22,366 nucleotides of DNA, taken from the IMG/VR virus record IMGVR_UViG_3300035034_002269, positions 1 to 22,366 of that record; one strand, written 5' to 3'. This stretch comes from a virus. Position numbers and translations under genes: made by a program. The stretch's first letter is position 1. The number at the start of each line of letters is the position of its first letter. Shown here in pieces: positions 2,452 through 22,348 of the stretch. The notes below the pieces were generated by a model. The model worked only from the letters and a program-made list of their open reading frames with translations. It was not told the DNA's origin and searched no databases.

Positions 2452-5400
2452 TCAAGCAACTGATCTGAGAGACCGGGCGGCACGTGACTTCAATTGATGC
2501 TCCGAACGACGGAACTCATTCGGGTCCTTCGCCTGAATGTTGAACACCACAGACTGCTGTGTCGTGTTCCCGCCCTTGGCCTCGCCGCCACGCATCTGGA
2601 CCGGCACATAACGCCCACGGGAAAGCGGGATGACGGCCTCATCGTCGTGCAGGATCGCAGGATGCTCTCCGGACGAGATGTTTGGCGTACCGACTGCGAG
2701 GCGTGGCGCGCTGTTGAAGGCAGGCATAGGTGCCATACCGTGAGCCACGGCGGAGCCTGTGATGCCCCCTTCCTCGAAGAAACCTGAAAGAAGGCTTCCG
2801 ATCTGTCCGCCGATGCCAGGCATTCCGAACATGGCCCCAATACCGGTTCCGGCAGCGCTCAGGATACCGCTGGTTGCGTCACCACCACCGCCGCCTCCCA
2901 TGAGACCGCCCAGCATGCCACCGATGCCGCCACCGCCGCCTCCCATGAGACCGCCCAGCATGCCGCCAGCTCCTCCGGCTCCGCCGCCGAGAAGGTCTCC
3001 GAAGATGCCTCCATTATTGAAGAGGTCAGAGAGACCACCAGCAGCTCCTGTGCCGGAATCTCCGTTCAGTGTGTCTCTGATCTGCTCAAGGACCGTGACG
3101 ATGGCGTAGTCGCCTTTGGACAGCTCATCCTTCTTGATCTCGCTGTAGCCGGACTGGAACGAGGACAGGAAGTTTCCTTCCTTGCCATCGAACAGCGACA
3201 TCGCACCTTTCTTCAGACCACCGATCAAGCCTCCCTTGTTGCCAAGGCCGACTTCATTCATGATGTCCTTGGTGACAAGCTCTCCAGCGCCTTGCGCGGC
3301 TTCGTCCCGGATCGCCGTCAGGAAATCCGTCATCTCGAAGTCGCCGGTCGCGAACAGTTTTGCAAAGGACCCTGCCAGCTCGTCGCCGACCGTCGTGGAC
3401 AGATCGCTCATCACTTCAGAGAGCGTGCGGGCTTCGTCGATCCACTGGCGGAAGCCGGTCGGATTGTCCATCTTGTCTTGCAGGATGACCATCTCGGATA
3501 CGTTCCGGATCAGATCAGATGTGATATCCACGCCTGCCTCTTCCAGCGTGTTGATCTCATCTCTGATAGCTGCGTAGCGGCGCGCTGACGTCTCGTCCAT
3601 GCCGGAGGTGGCCCGACTTTCAGCAAACCGGCGCTGCATCGCTCCAACAGGGTCCGTGGCATCACGGCTCTGCTTCTTCAGGCGTTCCAGCATGCGGTCG
3701 CGCTCTGGTCCGGCAGGGACGGCGTCGAGAACTGCCTGACGGTCGAGACCGTAGTCCCGGCGTGCAGCGGCGAGCGGGTTCAGATTGTCGCGGATAGACG
3801 AGAAGCGTTCGAGGCTTGCTTCAAGGCGCATCTTCTCGCGAAGCTCCTTGTTCTCGTCAGCCTGCGCCTCAGCATTCTCATGACGTAGCTTCGCCATGAA
3901 TTCGTAGTATTCCTTGATGCCCGGAGCAGCGTCCATCGTCTGCCTGGTCAAGGCAATGTTACGCTCGGTCTCGCTGACGAGTCCTTTGACAGGATCGATC
4001 TGAGCCTCGTACTCGGTCCGCAGGTTCTGCTGAGCCTGTGCCAGTTCCTTGTCGGTGATCAGCTTCTTCTTGTGAGCTTCGAGGAGCATCTTCTCGGAAG
4101 CGGCAAGTTCAGTTACGGCAGTCTTCATTGGAAGCATGCGTTCAATGAGCTTGTTGATGTTGGCAAGCCGTTTTGCCGCTGCTTTATCGTCGTCTTTACC
4201 TTTCGACGGATCATAATCGTCCGTGAACAGTTTCAGGTTCGCCTTGCGAGGGTCAATCGTTTTGGCCTCCTCGCCGCCGAGCGTTCCGCGAAGAGAATTC
4301 TTTGCCCGATTTTCCTTGATCTGCCGTGTGATGATGCCGTCACGGGAGAAGATGTCAGACTGACGCCCGAAGAAATTCTGGTCGATGGCAGCATTGTTCG
4401 AGCGGTACTGCATGACGTCGGCACGCAGCTCTTCATCGCTCTTCAGTCCGATGGCATTTGCGATCCCGGACCCACTCAATTTGACATTCTCGCCGAGCTT
4501 GCTCCAACCTCGATCAACCTTGTTGAGCATGTTGTCCCAATGGTTGAAGAACTGGTCGATAGCCCAGATCATGTTCTCGATCATTGAGCCGAAGTCGAGT
4601 TCGATATCTCCCCAGATACCACCAAGATATTTGTTGTAGGTGTCGAACGCGCCCATGACAAAGTTGAGGCCAGTCGTGACTCCTTTCACGATCAGGTCCC
4701 AGACAGCCTTTACGGTTTCACCGACCGTGACCATCTCGTCTCCGAGCATGTATGTCGCGTCCCGGTTCTTGTACAGGATGGCAGCAAGCGCCGCACCGGC
4801 AGCGAGGATCGCCACGAATGGGATGGACAGCATCGCCAGGCGCAAGGCCTTGGAAGCGCCTGTGGCAGCCCCCAGTGCTTTCGTTGTCCCCCAGATGTTC
4901 TTCGCCATGATCGCGAAGTTCGTTCCAGACTGGATGATGCTGGCTCCGAGATTGACTGACTTGTAGGCGACGGCAGCGATCAGGATGGCCTTCAGGCTCT
5001 CCTTGATCTTGTCCATGTTCTCGATGGTCCATACAGCAGCGTCGCCGATGCCACGCACAGCACGACCGAGGCCTTCACCCAGAGTGATGGCGAACTGGCG
5101 GAACTGGTCGGTCTGCATCGCAACAGTCAGCTTGTCGAAGGCGATCCCCAGCTCATAGAGGAACCCGGAATCTGCGACTGTCTTCTTGAAGAATGTCCAC
5201 TGGTTGCGGAGACGGTTCAGAGCAACATCCGGACGCTTCAGAGCTTCGCCCAGTTCATCGCCATACGTCTCGTCCAGAACCTGTGCGAAGCGCTGCATGG
5301 CTTCGATGGAGCTGATGTTACCTTTCTTCAGCTCTTCGTTCAGTTTGCGTTGAGCGGCTTCCATGCCCTCGGTTGCAACAATGTTCGGATACAACGCTTT

Positions 5401-6792
5401 CGCCATCGCCTGGAAAGCGCCGGGCAGACGTTCAGCCAGCTGACGGCGAAGTTCTTCCGAACTCAGGACGCCTTTCGAGATGATCTGCTCAATCGCGAGG
5501 AAGGCCAGTTCGGAGTCTTCAGCGTTCGCGCCGAGAACCGTCAAGGCTCCGGAAACGGATTCGAAGATGTCACGGGCTTCGCCGACCGTCAGACCGGATT
5601 GACCGGCAGCAGCAACGAATTTGGAGTAGCGTGGCAGGACGGTGTCAATTGCACCGCCCGTGCTTTGGATCATGGCGATGGCCTGTGCCATCTCTTCCGT
5701 CGCTTCTTCCTGAGATGCGGTGACAACCCGGAAGGCAGCATCGGCTTTCAGATACATGACCGACGTGTCGAAGACGCTCTTGGCGAAAGTGCCGAGAGAC
5801 AGGGCTCCGATCATGGTACGGAACAAGCTGCCCGCGTGGTAGGACAGCGAGAACGCGTTCTCAAGGCCGCGCAGTGCGCCGGTCATCCCATGGATGTTTC
5901 GTGTGGTCCGGTTGAAGGGGATACCCGTCATGCTCTTGCGCATCATTCCGAATGCCCGCGAGCTGCGTGTGGCAGCTGTGGCGATCCGGTCGAGGCCTGC
6001 GGCCATGGGGCCGAAGTCCTTGCGGAGCTGGACTGTGTTCAGGAAGGTGACAAACTGCTTGAAGCGTTCGATCTGGGAGGCAGTCGGCGGGCGGAAGGCA
6101 CGCATGGAATTGCCCAGCCCCATCAGACCAGCGGCCAGACCATTAGGCACACGGGCGCGTTGGATGCGGTCGAGGAACCGATCCATGTTGTCTACACGAG
6201 CTGAGGTAGGTGGACGGAAGTCTCGAAGCGCTGCGCTGATGGCAGTCAGCTTGTACAAGTCGTTCGAGATGCGAACGGCTTTGAGCATCTGGAAGAAGAG
6301 TCCGAGCTTTTCCAGGTTCTGGGGCTTGATCCGCGTCATGCTGGAGATCGCCGTTTTCAGCGTCTTCATATGAGATGCGGCGTTGCCGATGCTTTCGAGC
6401 GACTTGACGGCCTGTGCAATCTGCTGGATCACGGAGGCCCCCTTCCCTCCGTTCGCACGGGCAATGTTTGCCACTGCCTTGGAGAGATTGTTCAGGCGCG
6501 TGACGGCAGCCTGACTGGGACCCTTGAAGGCACTTATTTCCCTCAGCATGGCCACATAGTTGGACATGCCTCTGGAGGAGAACTTCACACGGGAGAGCTT
6601 GGATACCTCGCTCACCATCTTGGAGAAGTTGGCACCGGAGATAGCAGACTTCAGGCGCTCGAAGTCTTTCGTCGTGGCGTCAATGCTCGCTCTGGAGTTC
6701 GTCCGGATCGATTTGACCGCCTTAACAAATTGACGCGCGCCAGCCTCTGCTGAACGCGCGTCAATGGAGTATTTCAAAGTGCGGTCGGTCAC
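2452..6792 (-). CDS. Tail tape measure protein
   Basis: This 1446-aa protein fixes tail length and is ejected with the DNA. It starts with GTG at 6792, three bases after the T-frame stop, with GAGG upstream in the T coding end; no ATG is better placed. The first 300 residues are helical, Arg/Lys-rich repeats. Residues about 330-530 resemble the tape-measure N-terminal domain (VLPRYSKFVAAAGQSGLT, SKGVLSSEELRRQLAERLPG). Residues about 600-680 hold hydrophobic segments (ILIAAVAYKSV; AMLSIPFVAILAAGAALAAI) that could span a membrane. Residues about 880-1150 are coiled-coil-like. The C-terminal part (VGDELAGSFAKLF; FEEGG; HDDEAVIPL) is typical of lambdoid-like tape measures. A Gly/Met-rich stretch near residues 1255-1310 is coded by an internal duplication. 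At about 0.15 nm per residue the tail would be roughly 215 nm, a known rule of thumb rather than a measurement. Confidence 0.95.
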   Translation of the reverse strand: MTDRTLKYSIDARSAEAGARQFVKAVKSIRTNSRASIDATTKDFERLKSAISGANFSKMVSEVSKLSRVKFSSRGMSNYVAMLREISAFKGPSQAAVTRLNNLSKAVANIARANGGKGASVIQQIAQAVKSLESIGNAASHMKTLKTAISSMTRIKPQNLEKLGLFFQMLKAVRISNDLYKLTAISAALRDFRPPTSARVDNMDRFLDRIQRARVPNGLAAGLMGLGNSMRAFRPPTASQIERFKQFVTFLNTVQLRKDFGPMAAGLDRIATAATRSSRAFGMMRKSMTGIPFNRTTRNIHGMTGALRGLENAFSLSYHAGSLFRTMIGALSLGTFAKSVFDTSVMYLKADAAFRVVTASQEEATEEMAQAIAMIQSTGGAIDTVLPRYSKFVAAAGQSGLTVGEARDIFESVSGALTVLGANAEDSELAFLAIEQIISKGVLSSEELRRQLAERLPGAFQAMAKALYPNIVATEGMEAAQRKLNEELKKGNISSIEAMQRFAQVLDETYGDELGEALKRPDVALNRLRNQWTFFKKTVADSGFLYELGIAFDKLTVAMQTDQFRQFAITLGEGLGRAVRGIGDAAVWTIENMDKIKESLKAILIAAVAYKSVNLGASIIQSGTNFAIMAKNIWGTTKALGAATGASKALRLAMLSIPFVAILAAGAALAAILYKNRDATYMLGDEMVTVGETVKAVWDLIVKGVTTGLNFVMGAFDTYNKYLGGIWGDIELDFGSMIENMIWAIDQFFNHWDNMLNKVDRGWSKLGENVKLSGSGIANAIGLKSDEELRADVMQYRSNNAAIDQNFFGRQSDIFSRDGIITRQIKENRAKNSLRGTLGGEEAKTIDPRKANLKLFTDDYDPSKGKDDDKAAAKRLANINKLIERMLPMKTAVTELAASEKMLLEAHKKKLITDKELAQAQQNLRTEYEAQIDPVKGLVSETERNIALTRQTMDAAPGIKEYYEFMAKLRHENAEAQADENKELREKMRLEASLERFSSIRDNLNPLAAARRDYGLDRQAVLDAVPAGPERDRMLERLKKQSRDATDPVGAMQRRFAESRATSGMDETSARRYAAIRDEINTLEEAGVDITSDLIRNVSEMVILQDKMDNPTGFRQWIDEARTLSEVMSDLSTTVGDELAGSFAKLFATGDFEMTDFLTAIRDEAAQGAGELVTKDIMNEVGLGNKGGLIGGLKKGAMSLFDGKEGNFLSSFQSGYSEIKKDELSKGDYAIVTVLEQIRDTLNGDSGTGAAGGLSDLFNNGGIFGDLLGGGAGGAGGMLGGLMGGGGGGIGGMLGGLMGGGGGGDATSGILSAAGTGIGAMFGMPGIGGQIGSLLSGFFEEGGITGSAVAHGMAPMPAFNSAPRLAVGTPNISSGEHPAILHDDEAVIPLSRGRYVPVQMRGGEAKGGNTTQQSVVFNIQAKDPNEFRRSEHQLKSRAARSLRSVA
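2886..2964 (-). repeat. 45-bp in-frame direct duplication inside the tape measure gene
   Basis: A 34-nt stretch at 2886-2919 recurs exactly at 2931-2964, an offset of 45 bp. It encodes two 15-residue units of the form GGMLGGLMGGGGGG plus Ile or Asp. The repeat sits in a flexible Gly-rich part of the tape measure C-terminus, where a change in copy number would keep the frame. Confidence 0.85.
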
Positions 6793-6795
6793 CGG

Positions 6796-7185
6796 CTAGT
6801 ACCTCGTGGGCGGTCTCCTTGGATTGGAATCGCGCTTGTTCTTCGCGTCCTGCGCCCGACGCTCCTCGTCCCGGTGCTCCAGCATCACGTCATCAAGGAC
6901 GCCGATGAAGCAGGCGAGGTCTTCCCGATCTTCTTCCTCATGGATGCGGAACAGATCGGCGTAAGCTTTGATTTCTGAAGGGGGGATCGCGGAGATCGAG
7001 GAAAAGCTCGGTGGCCGTCTTCGATCAAGATAGACAAACGCTTCCCAAATCCATCTCAGGTGCGGGAAGAGTGTGGGCTCGTCTCGGAGGGAGGGAAGTT
7101 CTTTCCCCTGCTCCTCCGCGATCTTCTTGAGCCATCCGGACTTTCTTGCGGTAGGCTTCAGGGACCACCGCAAGAAGTCGGTTAG
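6796..7185 (-). CDS. Tail assembly chaperone T extension, made by -1 frameshift from G
   Basis: This frame encodes the T part of a G-T fusion. It has no convincing start of its own: the first usable codon is a TTG at 7173 without a ribosome binding site. It joins the G frame exactly by a -1 slip at the A-AAA-AAC heptamer at 7191-7185. The fusion then reads AKN (AAC decoded before the slip) followed by LTDFLRWSLKPTARK and ends at TAG 6796, adding 129 residues to the 133 of G. The body contains LRWIWEAFVYLDRRRPP and IPPSEIKAYADLFRI, the W-x-x-F, L-x-x-R and E-I-x-A-Y pattern usual in T-type tail chaperones. It lies between G and the tape measure, as in lambda-like tails. Confidence 0.85.
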   Translation of the reverse strand, partial: LTDFLRWSLKPTARKSGWLKKIAEEQGKELPSLRDEPTLFPHLRWIWEAFVYLDRRRPPSFSSISAIPPSEIKAYADLFRIHEEEDREDLACFIGVLDDVMLEHRDEERRAQDAKNKRDSNPRRPPTRY

Positions 7186-7191
7186 TTTTTT
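7143..7191 (-). promoter_or_regulatory. Programmed -1 frameshift signal (slippery heptamer plus stem-loop)
   Basis: On the minus strand the G frame ends GCA AAA AAC TAA. The heptamer A AAA AAC (7191-7185) fits X-XXY-YYZ in the correct phase and touches the stop codon. After an 8-nt spacer comes a perfect 10-bp stem, TTCTTGCGGT (7176-7167) with ACCGCAAGAA (7152-7143). It encloses a 14-nt loop whose GG and CC ends could extend it. Spacer length and stem are those of known stimulatory structures. The -1 frame downstream is open for 129 codons and encodes a T-like domain. Confidence 0.9.
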
Positions 7192-7583
7192 GCTGACTCC
7201 TCGTCAGACTGTGCCTTGAACACTTCGCGTTCCATGGCGGCACTCGCCACAGCATTCCGGAAGTCTGGCAGATCAGTCAGAACCTGGACCTTCGCTTCGG
7301 TCGTGTTCGGAAGGATATTGCCTTCTCGGTCGGTGACGCCTTCCCAGTCAACGATGACAGCTTCAGCGATCAGTCGGATCGTGATCTTCTCGGCGATATC
7401 GTCAGGGAGCGACTGACCGCCACGGACAAGACCGGCATACGGCTTCTGGAGACGCTGCTGGACCATCTGTACAGGCTTCGACTGGAAGCGGCGTACCTTG
7501 ACGCGGGTGCCTTCGCCGAAGGGAATCCATACGCCGTCAGTTTCGGCAGCGAGGTCGGTGGAAAAAGTTTCGTAAAGAGACAT
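7182..7583 (-). CDS. Tail assembly chaperone G
   Basis: This 133-aa protein sits between the tail tube and tape measure genes, where siphophages carry the chaperone that coats the tape measure during tail assembly. The pattern VIVDWEGVTDREGNILP followed by VLTDLPDFRNAV is typical of G-type chaperones. The frame ends just after AAA AAC and overlaps the -1 frame that gives the G-T fusion. ATG at 7583 has only a weak purine stretch (GAGAG) 5' of it. It follows a 351-nt structured non-coding region, and the six bases CCCGAC directly before the ATG can pair with that region, so initiation may be regulated. Confidence 0.88.
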   Translation of the reverse strand: MSLYETFSTDLAAETDGVWIPFGEGTRVKVRRFQSKPVQMVQQRLQKPYAGLVRGGQSLPDDIAEKITIRLIAEAVIVDWEGVTDREGNILPNTTEAKVQVLTDLPDFRNAVASAAMEREVFKAQSDEESAKN

Positions 7584-7934
7584 GTCGGGTTTCTCTCAAG
7601 TTGTGAATGGCGAGGGGTTCGGCCCGACTCCTCGCCCCTCGCCTGCCACGTGGCATTGGGGGATGTTCCGTTACGGAGTCGGGTATTTTGGGCTCCAGCC
7701 TGTATCGTGTCTTACGTCCACTGAGTGGGTATAGCTGTGCAGGGAGGCTGGAGGGACTGACCACGGCCGCATGCTGAGCAGAGGCGGGTCCGTGGTGTAC
7801 TTCGAGAGCCTGTCCGTAGTTTCCCAGAGGGACGGGCCGTATTGTTAAAGCAGGAAGTCAGACGCCTCGACGGGCGGACTGGGGTCAGCGATCCTTCCTG
7901 CTCCGGACCGTTATGAGGCTACCGGGTGCTGGGT
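7584..7934 (-). ncRNA. Highly structured non-coding interval / leader RNA upstream of tail chaperone G
   Basis: I see no convincing gene in this 351-nt gap. It holds an unusual number of perfect inverted repeats, given here in plus coordinates: 7609-7617 with 7635-7643 (GGCGAGGGG, 9 bp); 7623-7631 with 7675-7683 (CCCGACTCC, 9 bp); the 12-bp palindrome TGCCACGTGGCA at 7644-7655; 7693-7701 with 7745-7753 (CTCCAGCCT, 9 bp); 7760-7766 with 7790-7796 (ACCACGG, 7 bp, continued by CCGC/GCGG inside); 7849-7857 with 7894-7902 (AGCAGGAAG, 9 bp). The first two pairs interleave, which allows an H-type pseudoknot or a switch. GTCGGG within the second pair can also match CCCGAC abutting the G start codon. 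It could act as a 3' end or processing element for tail-tube mRNA, as a translational regulator of G, or as a separate small RNA. No U-rich terminator tail is seen. Confidence 0.65.
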
Positions 7935-9743
7935 TTAGGCTGTCGGTGCAGCCGTCGAAGAGAAGCGGTCACGCTGGAACATGCAGCGGGTCGTTGGATC
8001 ACGGAAGGCCGTGAATTCCAGCGGCTCAAGCACATCCTGGTCGATGCCTTGCGGAGTGATGTCATCAGACGTGAACTTCACTGCTGGAAGCGTTGTCCAG
8101 TAGGTGTTCTTGTCGAGGTCAACATAGTCGAAGGCGAGAGCGACAGTATCGTGATCGATGAAGTGATCATACATGACGCCGTCTTCGAAGTAGGCCGTGA
8201 CAGAACCAGTCAGGTTGAACCGACCCGTGCCGATGCCGCGTGCGTACTTGGAGCCTACAGCATTCTGTGCACGAAGGTTGGCTTCGCCCGTCAGGGAGAT
8301 CGACTGGACCGCCGTTGCCAGTTCGACGCCACCTTTGTAGATGGAGCCGACATTGGTCGTGGCGTTGATGACTTCAGTCGTGGTTGCTTCCAGAGTGTCG
8401 TATGGAGCTGCGCCGAGAACCGTTTCGGTCTTGCGCTGGCTTTCGCGTCCGAGGAATGTGAAGGAGCCCGTAACGATAGCGCCGGAAGACACTTCTTCGT
8501 TGAAGCCTCCTACACGCAAGCCGTTCCGGACAAAGATTTGACCGATGTCGGTGTAGTTCTCTTCCACGGAGAAGCTTTGTGGCGTGATGTCTTCGATGTC
8601 GCCAGGGTTGCGGAGCATGGAGCCCTTGATGGTGACAGAAGCGCTGGAGGCTACCGTGCCGACAGCTTCGGCGACCGTGATGACATCATCCGTCAGAGCC
8701 GTGATCGTGAAGAAGCCGCGCGTGGTTGCGTCGCCGCCAGAGAAGTCGGTCGTCGCGATGACCGATCCGGTCTCATCTTCAGCGAGCGCTCCGCCTGTGG
8801 AGTTCAGGTTGTTGATCGTGACAGTGTCAGTGGCGTCGGAGACAGCCTTGACGTTCACGAGGCCAGCAGCATAGTCAGCCTGGATCGCAGCAGCCAGATC
8901 GTCTGCAGCACCTGCAGCGTCAGCCGGAGTTCCAACATCGACAGATGTATCCGGAACCGTTCCACCGAACTGGTAGGTGCGAGTGTTCACACCATCAGAG
9001 ACAGTGACAAGGTCGCCAGCTGAAGGGACGCCGGAGAAGACAAATGTGCCTTCTTCGAAGCCGATGCCTTCAACAAAGATTTTCTGACCGACAGCCAGTT
9101 GGCCTGCTGCGATGGCAGAGGCGAATTCGTCATTGCTGTTGGAGTCGAACGTCTGGTTGCCGCTCGTGCCTGCCCGGATGTTCGCGCTGTTCAGGACGAT
9201 CACATCGTTGGCATCCATGACGCGGGTATAGCGGGATGCGGCCTCAGCCACGAATGGCGTGCCGGACACGGTGATGACCGTATTGCCGGACGTGAACGCA
9301 GCCGAGGAAATCTCGGCGTAGGCGTTGTTGGCAGGGTTCTTGAAGCCTTCGGTCTTGATGCGGCGACCTGCAGTGAGGTAGTCCGTATAGTCACGACCGG
9401 AGATAGTGATGGCGCTGCTGGAAGTGATCGAGACCGTCTCGCCTTCCCAGCGATCAAAGCTCATTGGACGCGTCCATGCACCCAGCACAAAGGCTTCCAT
9501 GAGTTCATCATGAGAGCCTGCGGAAAATTCAGTGGAAATGTCGCCACCGGTCCCGGCCTGAACCTCGATAACGCTCGAAACCATACGGTCAGCGCGAAGT
9601 TCGTCAGATACGGCAGTCTCTTTCGAGGCCGTCAGGCTGGCGGAAGTGAGGCGAAGTTCGCGCGTCGATCCAGAGGCTGGAGTCGTCCCCCAGACAACCT
9701 CTTTGATGATGCGCGCGATATAGCGGTTGCTGTCAGCAAACAT
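7935..9743 (-). CDS. Major tail tube protein (Phage_tube_2-like) with a large inserted domain
   Basis: This 602-aa protein looks like a siphophage tail tube subunit of the Phage_tube_2 type. The N-terminus has RIIKEVVWGTTPASGSTREL, a seRrADRMVSS-like segment and GTGGDISTEFSAGSHDELME. The C-terminal half (residues about 385-590) has the strand-rich core ending in FTAFRDPTT. Related proteins are often near 300 aa. Much of the excess lies at residues about 100-380, including a unit at about 236-342 (LVTVSDGVNTRTYQFGG; LAAAIQADYAAGLVNV; TVTINNLNSTGG) like add-on domains that decorate phage tails. ATG at 9743 has AGGAG 8 nt upstream. It is the first gene behind the promoter at 9861-9908 and is followed by the structured 351-nt interval. 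Confidence 0.88.
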   Translation of the reverse strand: MFADSNRYIARIIKEVVWGTTPASGSTRELRLTSASLTASKETAVSDELRADRMVSSVIEVQAGTGGDISTEFSAGSHDELMEAFVLGAWTRPMSFDRWEGETVSITSSSAITISGRDYTDYLTAGRRIKTEGFKNPANNAYAEISSAAFTSGNTVITVSGTPFVAEAASRYTRVMDANDVIVLNSANIRAGTSGNQTFDSNSNDEFASAIAAGQLAVGQKIFVEGIGFEEGTFVFSGVPSAGDLVTVSDGVNTRTYQFGGTVPDTSVDVGTPADAAGAADDLAAAIQADYAAGLVNVKAVSDATDTVTINNLNSTGGALAEDETGSVIATTDFSGGDATTRGFFTITALTDDVITVAEAVGTVASSASVTIKGSMLRNPGDIEDITPQSFSVEENYTDIGQIFVRNGLRVGGFNEEVSSGAIVTGSFTFLGRESQRKTETVLGAAPYDTLEATTTEVINATTNVGSIYKGGVELATAVQSISLTGEANLRAQNAVGSKYARGIGTGRFNLTGSVTAYFEDGVMYDHFIDHDTVALAFDYVDLDKNTYWTTLPAVKFTSDDITPQGIDQDVLEPLEFTAFRDPTTRCMFQRDRFSSTAAPTA

Positions 9744-9777
9744 TCAGTAGACTCCTTGGAGTGTGCGGCCTATGACC

Positions 9778-9792
9778 GACACCCCCGGTGTC
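9778..9792 (-). other. Leader hairpin of the tail tube mRNA
   Basis: GACACC (9778-9783 plus) and GGTGTC (9787-9792) form a 6-bp stem with a 3-nt GC loop in the roughly 110-nt leader between promoter and tail tube start. There is no U-tract after it on the minus strand, so it is a leader hairpin rather than a terminator. Confidence 0.5.
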
Positions 9793-9860
9793 TGTCTTCC
9801 TTTTCTTTTCGAGAAACGAGAGAAGCCACTCCAATGCATTTGGATGGCTATGATGGGTGC

Positions 9861-9908
9861 ACCATACATCAAAAGACCCGGAATGTCAAGTTTTCCGGGC
9901 CTTTGGCA
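9861..9908 (-). promoter_or_regulatory. Late promoter for the tail tube gene (TGCCAA / TTGACATTC family)
   Basis: On the minus strand: TGCCAA (9908-9903), 13 nt, -35 TTGACA (9889-9884, perfect), 17-nt spacer, -10 TATGGT (9866-9861). The stretch from CTTGACATTC to ATGTAT matches the promoter at 18297-18345 over most positions. Transcription would start near 9854, about 110 nt before the tail tube ATG. Confidence 0.8.
9871..9899 (-). terminator. Terminator hairpin overlapping the tail tube promoter
   Basis: On the minus strand CCCGGAA (9899-9893) pairs perfectly with TTCCGGG (9883-9877) around a 9-nt loop, followed by TCTTTT (9876-9871). It lies 26 nt after the stop of the tail terminator gene, as expected for an intrinsic terminator. 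The loop contains five of the six -35 bases of the next promoter and the stem carries the rest of the conserved CTTGACATTC block. Confidence 0.55.
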
Positions 9909-9924
9909 TAAATGGAATTACTGT

Positions 9925-12787: not shown

Positions 12788-13150
12788 TTAACCGCCCCAC
12801 ACACACGTGGTTAAGAAGGCGAAAACACCTAATGCCGCAATTCCAACGAATGCGCTAACCTTTTGGAAACCACTGGCCGACTTCTCATCTTTGCTGTCCG
12901 CTTCCGCTTCCATTTTGCTCTCCATTTTGTCAACGCGTTCTTTGAGTTCTGTCTGAGCTTTCTCAAGGTCCTTGAGAGACTCGCTGATATGCTCCACAGC
13001 TTCGGCCCCTTCTCGGAAGGGAGCCAGATGCTCGAACGCCTCCTGGATGGCGGCGTCCATTGCGTTCAGTGTGTTTTGAATGACCTTTGCAAATGCAGCG
13101 AATTCGGTGCGGGAGATGTACGTGTTGCCTTGGTCAGTTCCTTTCGTCAT
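12788..13150 (-). CDS. Coiled-coil protein with C-terminal membrane anchor (XhlA-like)
   Basis: This 120-aa protein has a long amphipathic helix (residues about 15-90, rich in E/K/L heptads such as ESLKDLEKAQTELKERVDKM), then a single hydrophobic segment (VSAFVGIAALGVFAFLTTCV, about 98-117) and two or three residues after it. This architecture, coiled coil plus tail anchor of about 100-120 aa, is that of XhlA-type proteins of phage lysis modules, but no sequence motif proves that. ATG at 13150 overlaps the PAS gene by 17 nt without a strong ribosome binding site, so it is probably coupled. No endolysin is visible nearby. Confidence 0.7.
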   Translation of the reverse strand: MTKGTDQGNTYISRTEFAAFAKVIQNTLNAMDAAIQEAFEHLAPFREGAEAVEHISESLKDLEKAQTELKERVDKMESKMEAEADSKDEKSASGFQKVSAFVGIAALGVFAFLTTCVWGG

Positions 13151-13691
13151 TGGGGGCTCGCATCACCCAACGCATGTCGGGCTTGATTAGAATTTCAGCT
13201 CCGACTTCGCCTGGCGACAGGCTGTCTTTTCGGGGCATATCTGCCACGACGAAACCCCCGGTCGCGCCCATGTCTTTGAGGGGAAGCTCTCCTTCCCGTG
13301 TAAATTCGATCTCCAGCGGCCATTCGATCTGGAATAGCGTCCGCTGTTCTCCTGTCTCAGGATTTGTGATCTCCTTGATGCAGAAGATCGGCTCGCCTTC
13401 GTGGACGACATTGATCTCCCGTCCGGAATACTCGATGGCGGTCAGCTCATTGGAAAACTCTGCATCGGCCTCGTACCTGTCAGAGGAAATGCCATACCGA
13501 TCCGCGTAGGCCCGGTTGGTTCTCACGACGAAGCCGGAAGAGACCTTGATCCACGCTGGCATCGGCAAGCGCTCGAAGAAGGCAAACAGATGTGAGTCCG
13601 CGCCCCCTCGTGTCTGATACGAGTCGGCGAGATCATTCATCTCTTTAAGGAGTACACGCAGGCGTGGCTCCTGAACTGGACTGGATGTCAT
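13134..13691 (-). CDS. PAS-domain protein without DNA-binding domain
   Basis: Residues about 40-148 look like a PAS sensor domain. LPMPAWIKVSSGFVVRTNRA followed by YADRYGISSDRYEADAEF has the P-x-W-x-K, N-x-A-Y and Y-G-I spacing of canonical PAS folds, and the later strands FCIKEITNPETGEQRTLFQI suit its beta-sheet. There is no HTH, kinase or GGDEF partner in the 185 residues; the last 50 residues (LPLKDMGATGGFVVADMPRK and beyond) are unassigned. I chose ATG at 13691. A TTG at 13697 is possible; neither has a Shine-Dalgarno, and a GC hairpin (13699-13711) sits just upstream. It has its own promoter and dyad and follows two HTH+PAS-like genes, so it may signal to them. That link is inference. 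Confidence 0.78.
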   Translation of the reverse strand: MTSSPVQEPRLRVLLKEMNDLADSYQTRGGADSHLFAFFERLPMPAWIKVSSGFVVRTNRAYADRYGISSDRYEADAEFSNELTAIEYSGREINVVHEGEPIFCIKEITNPETGEQRTLFQIEWPLEIEFTREGELPLKDMGATGGFVVADMPRKDSLSPGEVGAEILIKPDMRWVMRAPNDERN

Positions 13692-13698
13692 GTGCAAA

Positions 13699-13711
13699 GC
13701 CGCTGAGCGGC
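13699..13711 (-). other. GC hairpin directly before the PAS gene start
   Basis: GCCGC (13699-13703 plus), TGA, GCGGC (13707-13711) is a perfect 5-bp stem with a triloop. It ends 1 nt before the alternative TTG start and 7 nt before the ATG, in place of a ribosome binding site. It probably affects translation of the PAS gene. Confidence 0.5.
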
Positions 13712-13726
13712 GGTGATACCGAGAAA

Positions 13727-13751
13727 GATATCAGAGAACAAATTTGATATC
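13727..13751. promoter_or_regulatory. Dyad operator candidate at the PAS gene promoter
   Basis: GATATCA (13727-13733) and TGATATC (13745-13751) are perfect 7-bp inverted half sites separated by 11 bp, in one face-to-face turn-like arrangement (18 bp centre to centre). The right half site overlaps the expected transcription start of the promoter at 13756-13784. HTH regulators encoded directly upstream are natural candidates to bind it. Confidence 0.55.
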
Positions 13752-13755
13752 GTCT

Positions 13756-13784
13756 AAGCTACCATATTCCATCCCGTTTGTCAA
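13756..13784 (-). promoter_or_regulatory. Promoter for the PAS gene and downstream cassette
   Basis: On the minus strand: perfect -35 TTGACA (13784-13779), 17-nt spacer, -10 TAGCTT (13761-13756) with TG one base upstream (extended -10). It lies in the 90-nt gap between the second HTH+PAS-like gene and the PAS gene. It lacks the TGCCAA box of the late promoters, so it belongs to a different control class. Confidence 0.6.
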
Positions 13785-13787
13785 ATA

Positions 13788-14366
13788 CTATGCGGCTTCG
13801 GACGCATGAGCATAAACCGGGACTATTTCGATGATTGCCCATGTCTGTTTGCCTTCCGGACGGATCAATCTGCAGTGGGCGACATATCCCTTTCCACCTC
13901 TCTCGAAAAAGTGTGCGCTCTCCGGATCAAGGTAGTGAAAGATGTTTCGGAGAGGTTCTATGTCAAGCTTGCGTTGCTCCTTGTCCAGGCCGCTCAGGAT
14001 CAGGCCTTCATCCGTGATCATGAGCTTCCGGACTCCCATGGAGAAGGCCTTGATGTTCAGCTCGTGATCGACCGCAAATTCGATCCCCGGATTGTTCTTG
14101 ATCCTGCCGACTAGTCTGGCCTGCTCCATTACCGCTGGATAGCTGTAGTTCGGCATGATCTGCATCATCTGCTCTTCATGGGCCGGAGTGGGTGTGGCCT
14201 CCCCTCTGAGCCAGCGCTGTGCTGTCTTCTCCTCGACCTCCATCAGCACCGATAATTGGGAGGCAGTCAGATCGAGGTCACGGCAGATGCGTCGGGACAG
14301 TCCGCATCTCAAGGTGCGGTGATCGCCTGACAGGGGTCTGATCTTTCTCGGCTTCCGATTGATCAT
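13788..14366 (-). CDS. HTH regulator with C-terminal PAS-like domain (second of pair)
   Basis: This 192-aa protein has a helix-turn-helix at residues about 30-72 (LTASQLSVLMEVEEKTAQRW then LRGE), of the kind found in Cro/XRE-like regulators. Residues about 92-186 (GIEFAVDHELNIKAFSMGVR, then strands CRLIRPEGKQTWAIIEIVPV) have the opening D-x-x-x-x-I/V-x-x-x-S pattern of a PAS fold. The N-terminal 28 residues are strongly basic. ATG at 14366 directly abuts the stop of the preceding HTH+PAS-like gene, so both are translated together. A transcriptional regulator responding to a small ligand or partner is the natural reading; the ligand cannot be inferred. Confidence 0.75.
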   Translation of the reverse strand: MINRKPRKIRPLSGDHRTLRCGLSRRICRDLDLTASQLSVLMEVEEKTAQRWLRGEATPTPAHEEQMMQIMPNYSYPAVMEQARLVGRIKNNPGIEFAVDHELNIKAFSMGVRKLMITDEGLILSGLDKEQRKLDIEPLRNIFHYLDPESAHFFERGGKGYVAHCRLIRPEGKQTWAIIEIVPVYAHASEAA

Positions 14367-14927
14367 CTAGTAGGCATCCTGAATGATCTCCTTCAATTCG
14401 GTGTGTCGGTCGTCCACTGTGAACGTGTATGTTATTCCCTGACGGCCCTCTATTTCGAGTCCTATCGGGACGATCCTCATCGAATAGACGAGGCCGCGAT
14501 AGCGGATGCCGTGGAGGAAGGCCTGACTGCACTGGCCGGAGAACATGCCCCGGCGCAGGAAATTCCAGAAGAAAGTCTCGATCTCCGGCAGCGGATTGAT
14601 GTCACGCATGTTCCGCCCGATACAGTCATCAGGCGTGAGATCGAAGGAAGCTGCGGCGCTCCGGGACATGGCACGGACTGTCAGGTTCGTGTCCAGATAC
14701 GCGCTATTCAAAGGCGATCCGTTTGTGGCGCGTATTACTGCCTGCCTGTTGGCTCGCTCCAGGATCGGCATGATGAGGTCGAGAACCCTCTGCCGTTGCC
14801 TTTCCGGTATTCCATTCTTCTCCCATTTTGACAGCACCGATTGAGTACAACCAAGACGCGCGCAAGTCTCCCCTTGTGTTAACCTCGCTTCATGGCGGTA
14901 CAGGCTTAATAGCGAGCCCGTTTGCAT
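14367..14927 (-). CDS. XRE-family HTH regulator with C-terminal PAS-like domain (first of pair)
   Basis: This 186-aa protein has a Cro/C1-type HTH at residues about 5-52: LLSLYRHEARLTQGETCARL then GCTQSVLSKWEKNGIP, with the recognition helix TQSVLSKWE. Residues about 72-180 resemble a PAS domain: SAYLDTNLTVRAMSRSAAAS, then FDLTPDDCIGRNMRDI, the D-x-N-x-x-V-x-x-x-S and I-G-x-x-x-x-D-I pattern, followed by strands SMRIVPIGLEIEGRQGITYT. ATG at 14927 has AAGGAG 6 nt upstream, the strongest ribosome binding site in the cassette. It begins just after a strong terminator, so it needs its own promoter, which I could not identify with confidence. It may be a repressor or a late-gene activator. Confidence 0.82.
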   Translation of the reverse strand: MQTGSLLSLYRHEARLTQGETCARLGCTQSVLSKWEKNGIPERQRQRVLDLIMPILERANRQAVIRATNGSPLNSAYLDTNLTVRAMSRSAAASFDLTPDDCIGRNMRDINPLPEIETFFWNFLRRGMFSGQCSQAFLHGIRYRGLVYSMRIVPIGLEIEGRQGITYTFTVDDRHTELKEIIQDAY

Positions 14928-20141: not shown

Positions 20142-20217
20142 TGGTATTCCCGATGGGATTTGAACCCATGTTGCCGACGTGAAAGGCCGGTGTCCTGGAC
20201 CACTAGACGACGGGAAC
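20142..20217 (-). tRNA. tRNA-Glu (anticodon UUC)
   Basis: A full cloverleaf is visible on the minus strand: acceptor GTTCCCG with CGGGAAT (first pair G-U wobble), anticodon arm CCGGC-CTTTCAC-GTCGG giving anticodon TTC, T arm ATGGG-TTCAAAT-CCCAT, discriminator A, and an encoded CCA (20144-20142). It starts on the base after the CCA of tRNA-Pro, so the two are cut from one precursor. The usual G1-C72 pair is replaced by G-U. Confidence 0.96.
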
Positions 20218-20295
20218 TGGTCTGTGTGGCAGGATTTGAACCTACGACCCCCTGCTTCCAAGGCAGGTGCTCTACGCAGACTGAGCTACACACAG
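20218..20295 (-). tRNA. tRNA-Pro (anticodon UGG) with A37
   Basis: Cloverleaf on the minus strand: acceptor CTGTGTG with CACACAG, D arm GCTC...GAGC, anticodon arm CCTGC-CTTGGAA-GCAGG (anticodon TGG), T arm GTAGG-TTCAAAT-CCTGC, A73 and an encoded CCA (20220-20218). The C1-G72 pair and A73 are the known bacterial tRNA-Pro identity marks, which support the call. Position 37 is A, where bacterial tRNA-Pro normally has the methylated G37. Confidence 0.94.
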
Positions 20296-22151: not shown

Positions 22152-22206
22152 GTTTCCAGGGAAGGTCCAGGCGATTGCCAGGCGTTTCCAGGGAAGGTCC
22201 AGGCGA
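22152..22206. repeat. Two 23-bp direct repeats leading into the tandem array
   Basis: A 23-bp block beginning GTTTCCAGGGAAGG and ending CCAGGCGA occurs at 22152-22174 and 22184-22206, 32 bp apart. Its end shares the CAGGCG core with the units of the adjoining array. Confidence 0.9.
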
Positions 22207-22348
22207 GCCCGTGGGAGCGTGGCAGGCTGCAGGCGAGCCCGTGGGAGCGTGGCAGGCTGCAGGCGAGCCCGTGGGAGCGTGGCAGGCTGCAGGCGAGCCC
22301 GTGGGAGCATGGCAGGCTGCAGGCGAGCCCGTGGGAGCGTGGCAGGCT
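22201..22348. repeat. 30-bp tandem repeat array (five copies)
   Basis: Units start at 22201, 22231, 22261, 22291 and 22321. They are identical except one base in copy 4 (GCAT for GCGT) and a diverged end in copy 5. Each unit begins AGGCGAGCCCGTGGGAGC and ends GGCAGGCTGC. With the two flanking 23-bp repeats the core CAGGCG appears at least seven times. The unit length is a multiple of three, so long repetitive reading frames run through both strands, but none has a good ribosome binding site. The 314-nt stretch 22053-22366 contains this array, the hairpin and no gene I can support. Confidence 0.95.

Follow-up and report, generated by a model that had tools for sequence, protein, structure and literature searches.

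The tail module and its 351-nt gap

The DNA analysed here, referred to as the window, is a virus record of 22,366 nt with a phage structural module on its minus strand. The genes of this module run in the order portal, major capsid, neck, tail terminator, tail tube, a gap of 351 nt, G, T and tape measure (Table 1). G carries the slippery heptamer AAAAAAC at its end, identical to the one reported in the phiCbK genome paper (PMC3556154). We found no convincing coding sequence within the 351-nt gap. The earlier note had contrasted this gap with a module that has almost no spacer elsewhere, which is not strictly so, as the tail-tube gene is itself preceded by a gap of ~180 nt (9744–9924).

Some other features of the window were recorded in passing. 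Adjacent tRNA-Glu and tRNA-Pro genes (20142–20217 and 20218–20295, minus strand) lie where the portal gene region begins. Three small genes (13134–14927, minus strand) are located between the capsid and PhoH genes; one of them (14367–14927) gave weak HTH and PAS matches below the curated cut-offs, which is unusual for a structural module. Near the contig end, a 30-nt unit is present in five nearly identical tandem copies (22200–22348).

Table 1. Features of the tail module and of the tube–chaperone gap (positions in the window)
Feature	Position	Strand	Remarks	Basis
Tail tube protein	7935–9743	−	directly upstream of the gap	Pfam Phage_tube_2; PHROG 290
Hairpin of 9 bp, AGCAGGAAG/CUUCCUGCU	7849–7902	−	shortly after the tail-tube stop	
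9-bp stem	7849–7857/7894–7902		further stems of 7 bp also found	inverted-repeat search
9-bp stem	7693–7701/7745–7753			inverted-repeat search
9-bp stem	7623–7631/7675–7683	−		inverted-repeat search
9-bp stem	7609–7617/7635–7643	−		inverted-repeat search
U, upstream partner strand CCCGACUCC	7675–7683	−	9 bp complementary to the H3 loop	
H1, small hairpin UCCG-UAA-CGGA	7667–7677	−	between U and H2, overlapping the end of U	
H2, perfect 12-nt palindrome TGCCACGTGGCA	7644–7655	−		sequence
H3, 5′ arm GGCGAGGGG	7635–7643	−	family helix covaries	inverted repeat
L, loop segment GGAGUCGGG	7623–7631	−	UCGGG, 7623–7627; GUCGGG, 7623–7628	
H3, 3′ arm CCCCUCGCC	7609–7617	−		inverted repeat
GAGAG, weak Shine-Dalgarno-like	7593–7597	−	9 nt before ATG	sequence, inference
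D, CCCGAC	7584–7589	−	complementary to GUCGGG in L; between Shine-Dalgarno-like sequence and ATG	
Tail assembly chaperone G, 133 aa	7182–7583	−	presumed controlled gene	PHROG 8233 and 313
Slippery heptamer AAAAAAC, end of G	7185–7191	−	expected −1 frameshift into GT	sequence
T part of the GT frameshift product	6796–7173	−		PHROG 8233 (C-terminal half); PHROG 3817
Tape measure protein	2452–6792	−	same module, downstream of the chaperone	

The repeats claimed for the gap in the earlier note are all present, the stems exactly as described together with the 12-nt palindrome, and CCCGAC does lie immediately before the chaperone ATG (7581–7583). Perfect 9-bp inverted repeats within 60 nt were observed four times, against 0.09 expected (P ~0.0005). 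In 7 of 20,000 dinucleotide shuffles there arose a hairpin with a loop complementary to one 6-mer upstream and to another near the start. The specific architecture is thus rare; the 351 nt taken together have an ordinary minimum free energy (z = −1.0; 15 of 100 shuffles as good), but this measure was uninformative and cannot represent interleaved pairing.

An element of the same build in related phages

Relatives were collected by tail-tube and chaperone searches, which yielded ten annotated phages, 80 IMG/VR loci and three genome loci, and to these ten further phages and 13 Nanhaivirus-like loci were added. The tail-tube alignment was used for the relative search because the chaperone alignment has no conserved stretch to search with, and a single-protein search of viral contigs with the chaperone found no relatives. 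Nearly all alignable relatives have a gap of ~80–390 nt at the tube–chaperone junction, and we counted 58 distinct elements of the same build in this gap, including those of phages whose chaperones share only 24–41% identity with that of the window. In the distant tube relatives PaMx28, DLP4 and Seurat, the gap is 4–29 nt and the element is absent.

From 5′ to 3′, the element often begins with a hairpin after the tube stop, followed by U, sometimes H1, often H2, H3 with UCGGG in its loop, and finally D. The hairpin after the tail-tube stop, which is strong in the relatives too, is a possible 3′-end stabiliser outside the core element; H1-like hairpins occur in many relatives. H3 has 9–13 bp in the relatives (median 12 bp) and its sequence is unconserved. 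In its loop, UCGGG usually has 2 nt before it and 0–1 nt after it, and the link from the motif to the 3′ arm is usually 0–2 nt. UCGGG is invariant in the seed alignments, partly by selection, because the members were picked for a hairpin containing UCGGG, with no requirement for D, U or H2.

D (CCCGA or CCUGA) typically follows H3 by 7–10 nt and adjoins the chaperone gene's Shine-Dalgarno sequence or its start codon. A copy was found beside one or the other in 57 of the 58 elements, compared with 10% of 45-nt stretches chosen at random. Many relatives have the end of D immediately ahead of the Shine-Dalgarno sequence (CCCGAC-AAGG), and no more than 12 nt separate a copy from the start codon in the window and in about one third of the elements. 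U, defined as CCCGA within 65 nt upstream of H3, is present in 44 of the 58 and missing in about a quarter. The pairing of GTCGGG with CCCGAC before the start codon, mentioned in the earlier note as a further option, is therefore the more constant pairing of the two. CCCGA often recurs two to four times in one element.

The element is absent from one tube clade (L074/L076, L080, L081, L084, L086) and from L002, L022 and L070, and as several relatives do without it, it is not essential in all of them. Among the Nanhaivirus-like loci, L123 lacks the loop motif and D as well, and L122 has lost the whole gap. From a presence/absence tree we read only the grouping of the loci that truly lack the element and drew no statistic, because near-duplicates of counted elements carried the label 'no'.

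Six Nanhaivirus-like loci (L111, L116, L118, L121, L124, L125) have promoter-like boxes between H3 and D (TTGCAN-like, 17 nt, TATCTT-like), which would allow a second transcript to include D but not H3. TTGACA-type promoter-like sequences, read by eye, are also seen in the tube–chaperone gaps of L022, L033, L040, L080 and L084, mostly in gaps that lack the RNA element or have it only in part. Promoter-like boxes in the gaps of relatives, read in this manner, would suit a requirement for chaperone expression independent of the tube.

Compensatory changes in H3

The model was built on H3–D only, since a first whole-element MAFFT alignment had put the stems out of register. H3 covaries at 11 of the 11 modelled pairs. 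In an alignment that was fitted to the structure and is thus biased towards pairing, 92.8% of the cells are paired, compared with 52.6% after shuffling and 46–51% with the partner slid; the seed alignment already shows the covariation. Double changes number 174, against 53 in shuffles and 28–50 with the partner slid, the latter control preserving the relatedness among elements. A hairpin of unconserved sequence has thus been kept by compensatory changes.

These data bear on two other explanations of the gap. It is extremely unlikely that the element acts as DNA, as an operator or promoter: sigma-70-like sequences (TTGACA, or TTGCAN with TATCTT-like boxes) are visible by eye in the gaps of some relatives, but the complementarity of H3 has been kept through complete sequence change, the spacing between the parts varies, and a search of the window gap for sigma-70 −35/−10 hexamers found none. 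H3 could also be mainly a transcription attenuator or terminator, or a stabiliser of an mRNA 3′ end between tube and chaperone, as a T run follows it in a few AT-rich relatives (only L016–L021) and a hairpin distinct from H3 is frequent after the tube stop. We consider this very unlikely, because in the window and the GC-rich relatives H3 has no following T run, the sole terminator-like site near H3 in the window is on the other strand, and the conserved loop and the D copy by the start codon would be left unexplained.

Predicted pairing of the loop with D and U

As the 5-nt core hardly varies, the evidence for pairing of the loop comes mostly from the flanking bases. For L–D we observed 103 flanking pairs against 81.5 ± 6.8 (p = 0.0012; p = 0.0002 with one element per clade), and the signal for L–U was weaker (p = 0.03; p = 0.012 with one element per clade); these permutations compare matching within and between genomes, by which the effect of relatedness is reduced, not removed. 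In one clade (L004, L064), L reads AUCGGGG, and U and D have both changed to CCCCGAU.

The flanking bases also bear on the idea of a protein-binding operator, where the CCCGA repeats and H3 would bind a repressor of the module, e.g. the tail tube protein, G or GT, in the way that gp32 represses on T4 gene 32 mRNA, and base pairing would be secondary. The recurrence of CCCGA two to four times would suit it, and T4 gene 32 has a 5′ pseudoknot with short repeats at the ribosome-binding site (PMC535899). However, none of the module's proteins was identified as RNA-binding, and the loop covaries with the bases on either side of the repeats, which protein binding alone would not require; we therefore hold this explanation to be unlikely.

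The predicted geometry of L–D, typically an H3 of ~12 bp, 2 nt, a second stem of 6–8 bp and a connecting loop of ~7–10 nt, is that of a classical H-type pseudoknot. With H3 closed, the U–L helix would have to be crossed by a connector of usually 0–2 nt in the relatives, which is too short, and of 5 nt in the window, so U–L and a closed H3 are probably alternatives. The opinion of the earlier note that the interleaved 9-bp pair may more likely be a switch than a stable pseudoknot is reasonable on these grounds. In the window, the loop is of 17 nt instead of the usual 7–9, D is present in a single copy and the U–L pairing is unusually long; by simple duplex energies, the 9 bp of U–L amount to about −18.6 kcal/mol as against −12.1 for L–D.

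The H2 palindrome

Palindromes of variable sequence occupy the place of H2 in many relatives. Distinct Watson–Crick palindromes of at least 10 nt number 21 in 60 elements, compared with 2.5 in shuffles (maximum 8, 500 runs). A common further variant, UUUCGCUGGCGAAA, is self-complementary only with G–U pairs, which favours RNA over DNA. The HIV-1 dimer initiation hairpin and other palindromic kissing loops are hairpins with a self-complementary centre, and the likeness of H2 to them lies in this centre and is one of resemblance only. Since a hairpin needs no self-complementary loop, dimerisation via H2 is a fair idea, and the palindrome might mean that the RNA dimerises. It is rather doubtful that H2 goes further and lets abundant tail-module mRNAs dimerise, thereby moving the loop between U and D as a sensor of message concentration. 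If it did, the synthesis of chaperone and tape measure would be coupled to the amount of tail-tube message.

Specificity of the element and likely membership of the window

In 314 kb of the same loci, none of the 722 other UCGGG sites had a strong hairpin with CCYGA behind it. Model R1 matched phages outside its training set, and only at this place (Pan1, E = 2.3e-4; DSS3P8, E = 0.003; Bajun, E = 0.016). When whole records of up to 348 kb were searched, strong matches were confined to the tube–chaperone gap, and the extra weaker matches (E 0.1–0.7) were at chance level.

The window itself has UCGGG in the H3 loop (7623–7627) and CCCGA by the chaperone start codon (7584–7589), as the members of the family do. 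With default filters R1 did not match it; with the filters off it scored 9.9 bits (E = 0.051 for 501 nt), low because its loop is larger. From its position, the shared UCGGG and CCCGA, the H2 palindrome and the shuffle test, the window is likely a divergent member of the family.

Against Rfam 15, the window gave only two tRNAs at gathering scores, and nine related loci gave no credible match at E up to 1. A term search of the phiCbK genome paper (PMC3556154), in which the frameshift site is reported, returned no RNA element here. The papers covered by the literature search, which reached few subscription journals and not the 2017 survey of 224 structured-RNA candidates, contained no earlier description. 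A conserved RNA element in the tube–chaperone gap, undescribed in Rfam and in the literature searched, is well supported by these sequence comparisons.

A possible switch at the chaperone ribosome-binding site

In long-tailed phages, the tail tube is needed in many copies, and the chaperone and the tape measure in far fewer. The earlier note had proposed a cis-acting RNA that sets this ratio or, instead, a separate small RNA. Conservation, covariation and the location at the ribosome-binding site all agree with the former. No support emerged for a distinct small RNA processed from the transcript, the conserved part being tied to the chaperone start.

We propose, with a probability of about 0.6, that the gap is a cis-acting RNA switch in which the L–D pseudoknot represses translation of the chaperone and tape measure and U competes. 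On the tail-module mRNA, H3 would present the UCGGG loop L, which would pair with D at the Shine-Dalgarno sequence or start codon of G and form the H-type pseudoknot. This structure would hide or crowd the chaperone ribosome-binding site, and translation of G, GT and probably the tape measure would be kept far lower than that of the abundant tail tube, whose gene lies upstream in the shared transcript. U would compete with D for L and could hold the ribosome-binding site open. Repression by L–D that is relieved or tuned by U is favoured because U–L and the closed H3 are probably alternatives. We infer L–D pairing in the cell, repression rather than activation, and a trigger that shifts the balance.

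The main rival is the opposite sign: L–D would keep the ribosome-binding site open or recruit the ribosome, and U–L would switch the gene off. There is a precedent in IncI-alpha repZ, the translation of which is activated by, and needs, a pseudoknot upstream of the ribosome-binding site (PMC8383071). Where D stops just before the Shine-Dalgarno sequence, that sequence is mostly left free. However, a D copy as close to the start codon as in the window should hinder initiation, and the low copy number required of the chaperone and tape measure relative to the tube also argues against activation, which we consider rather unlikely.

Judged by analogy, the element appears to resemble known ribosome-binding-site pseudoknots in its working, but could be assigned to none of them. 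Like the operator of T4/RB69 gene 32, it would be a pseudoknot in a phage mRNA, located ahead of the ribosome-binding site and accompanied by short repeats near the start (PMC535899). There, a protein (gp32) binds the pseudoknot and UUAAA repeats, and the genes are unrelated to the chaperone module; here the CCCGA repeats complement the loop. The repZ pseudoknot is likewise upstream of its ribosome-binding site and blockable by another RNA strand (PMC8383071), but there an antisense RNA competes and the effect of the pseudoknot is activation, whereas here the competitor strand is in cis. The pseudoknots of E. coli rpsO (S15) and the alpha operon (S4) lower translation at the ribosome-binding site (PMC10931766), and that of rpsO can trap the ribosome; unlike the present element, they are stabilised by ribosomal proteins, enclose the ribosome-binding site and belong to cellular genes. 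The G/GT −1 frameshift signal, in the window the same heptamer as in phiCbK, is also a translational device of the same gene, but it sits at the end of G and not before it, and is a separate feature.

The known G/GT frameshift does not account for the large step from the tail tube to the chaperone and tape measure, to which a switch of the proposed kind would apply. CcrColossus and the phiCbK group, which are experimentally tractable, carry the conserved RNA, and the question is therefore directly testable. The element would represent an undescribed family of structured phage RNAs, possibly with an unusual palindromic, dimer-prone hairpin.
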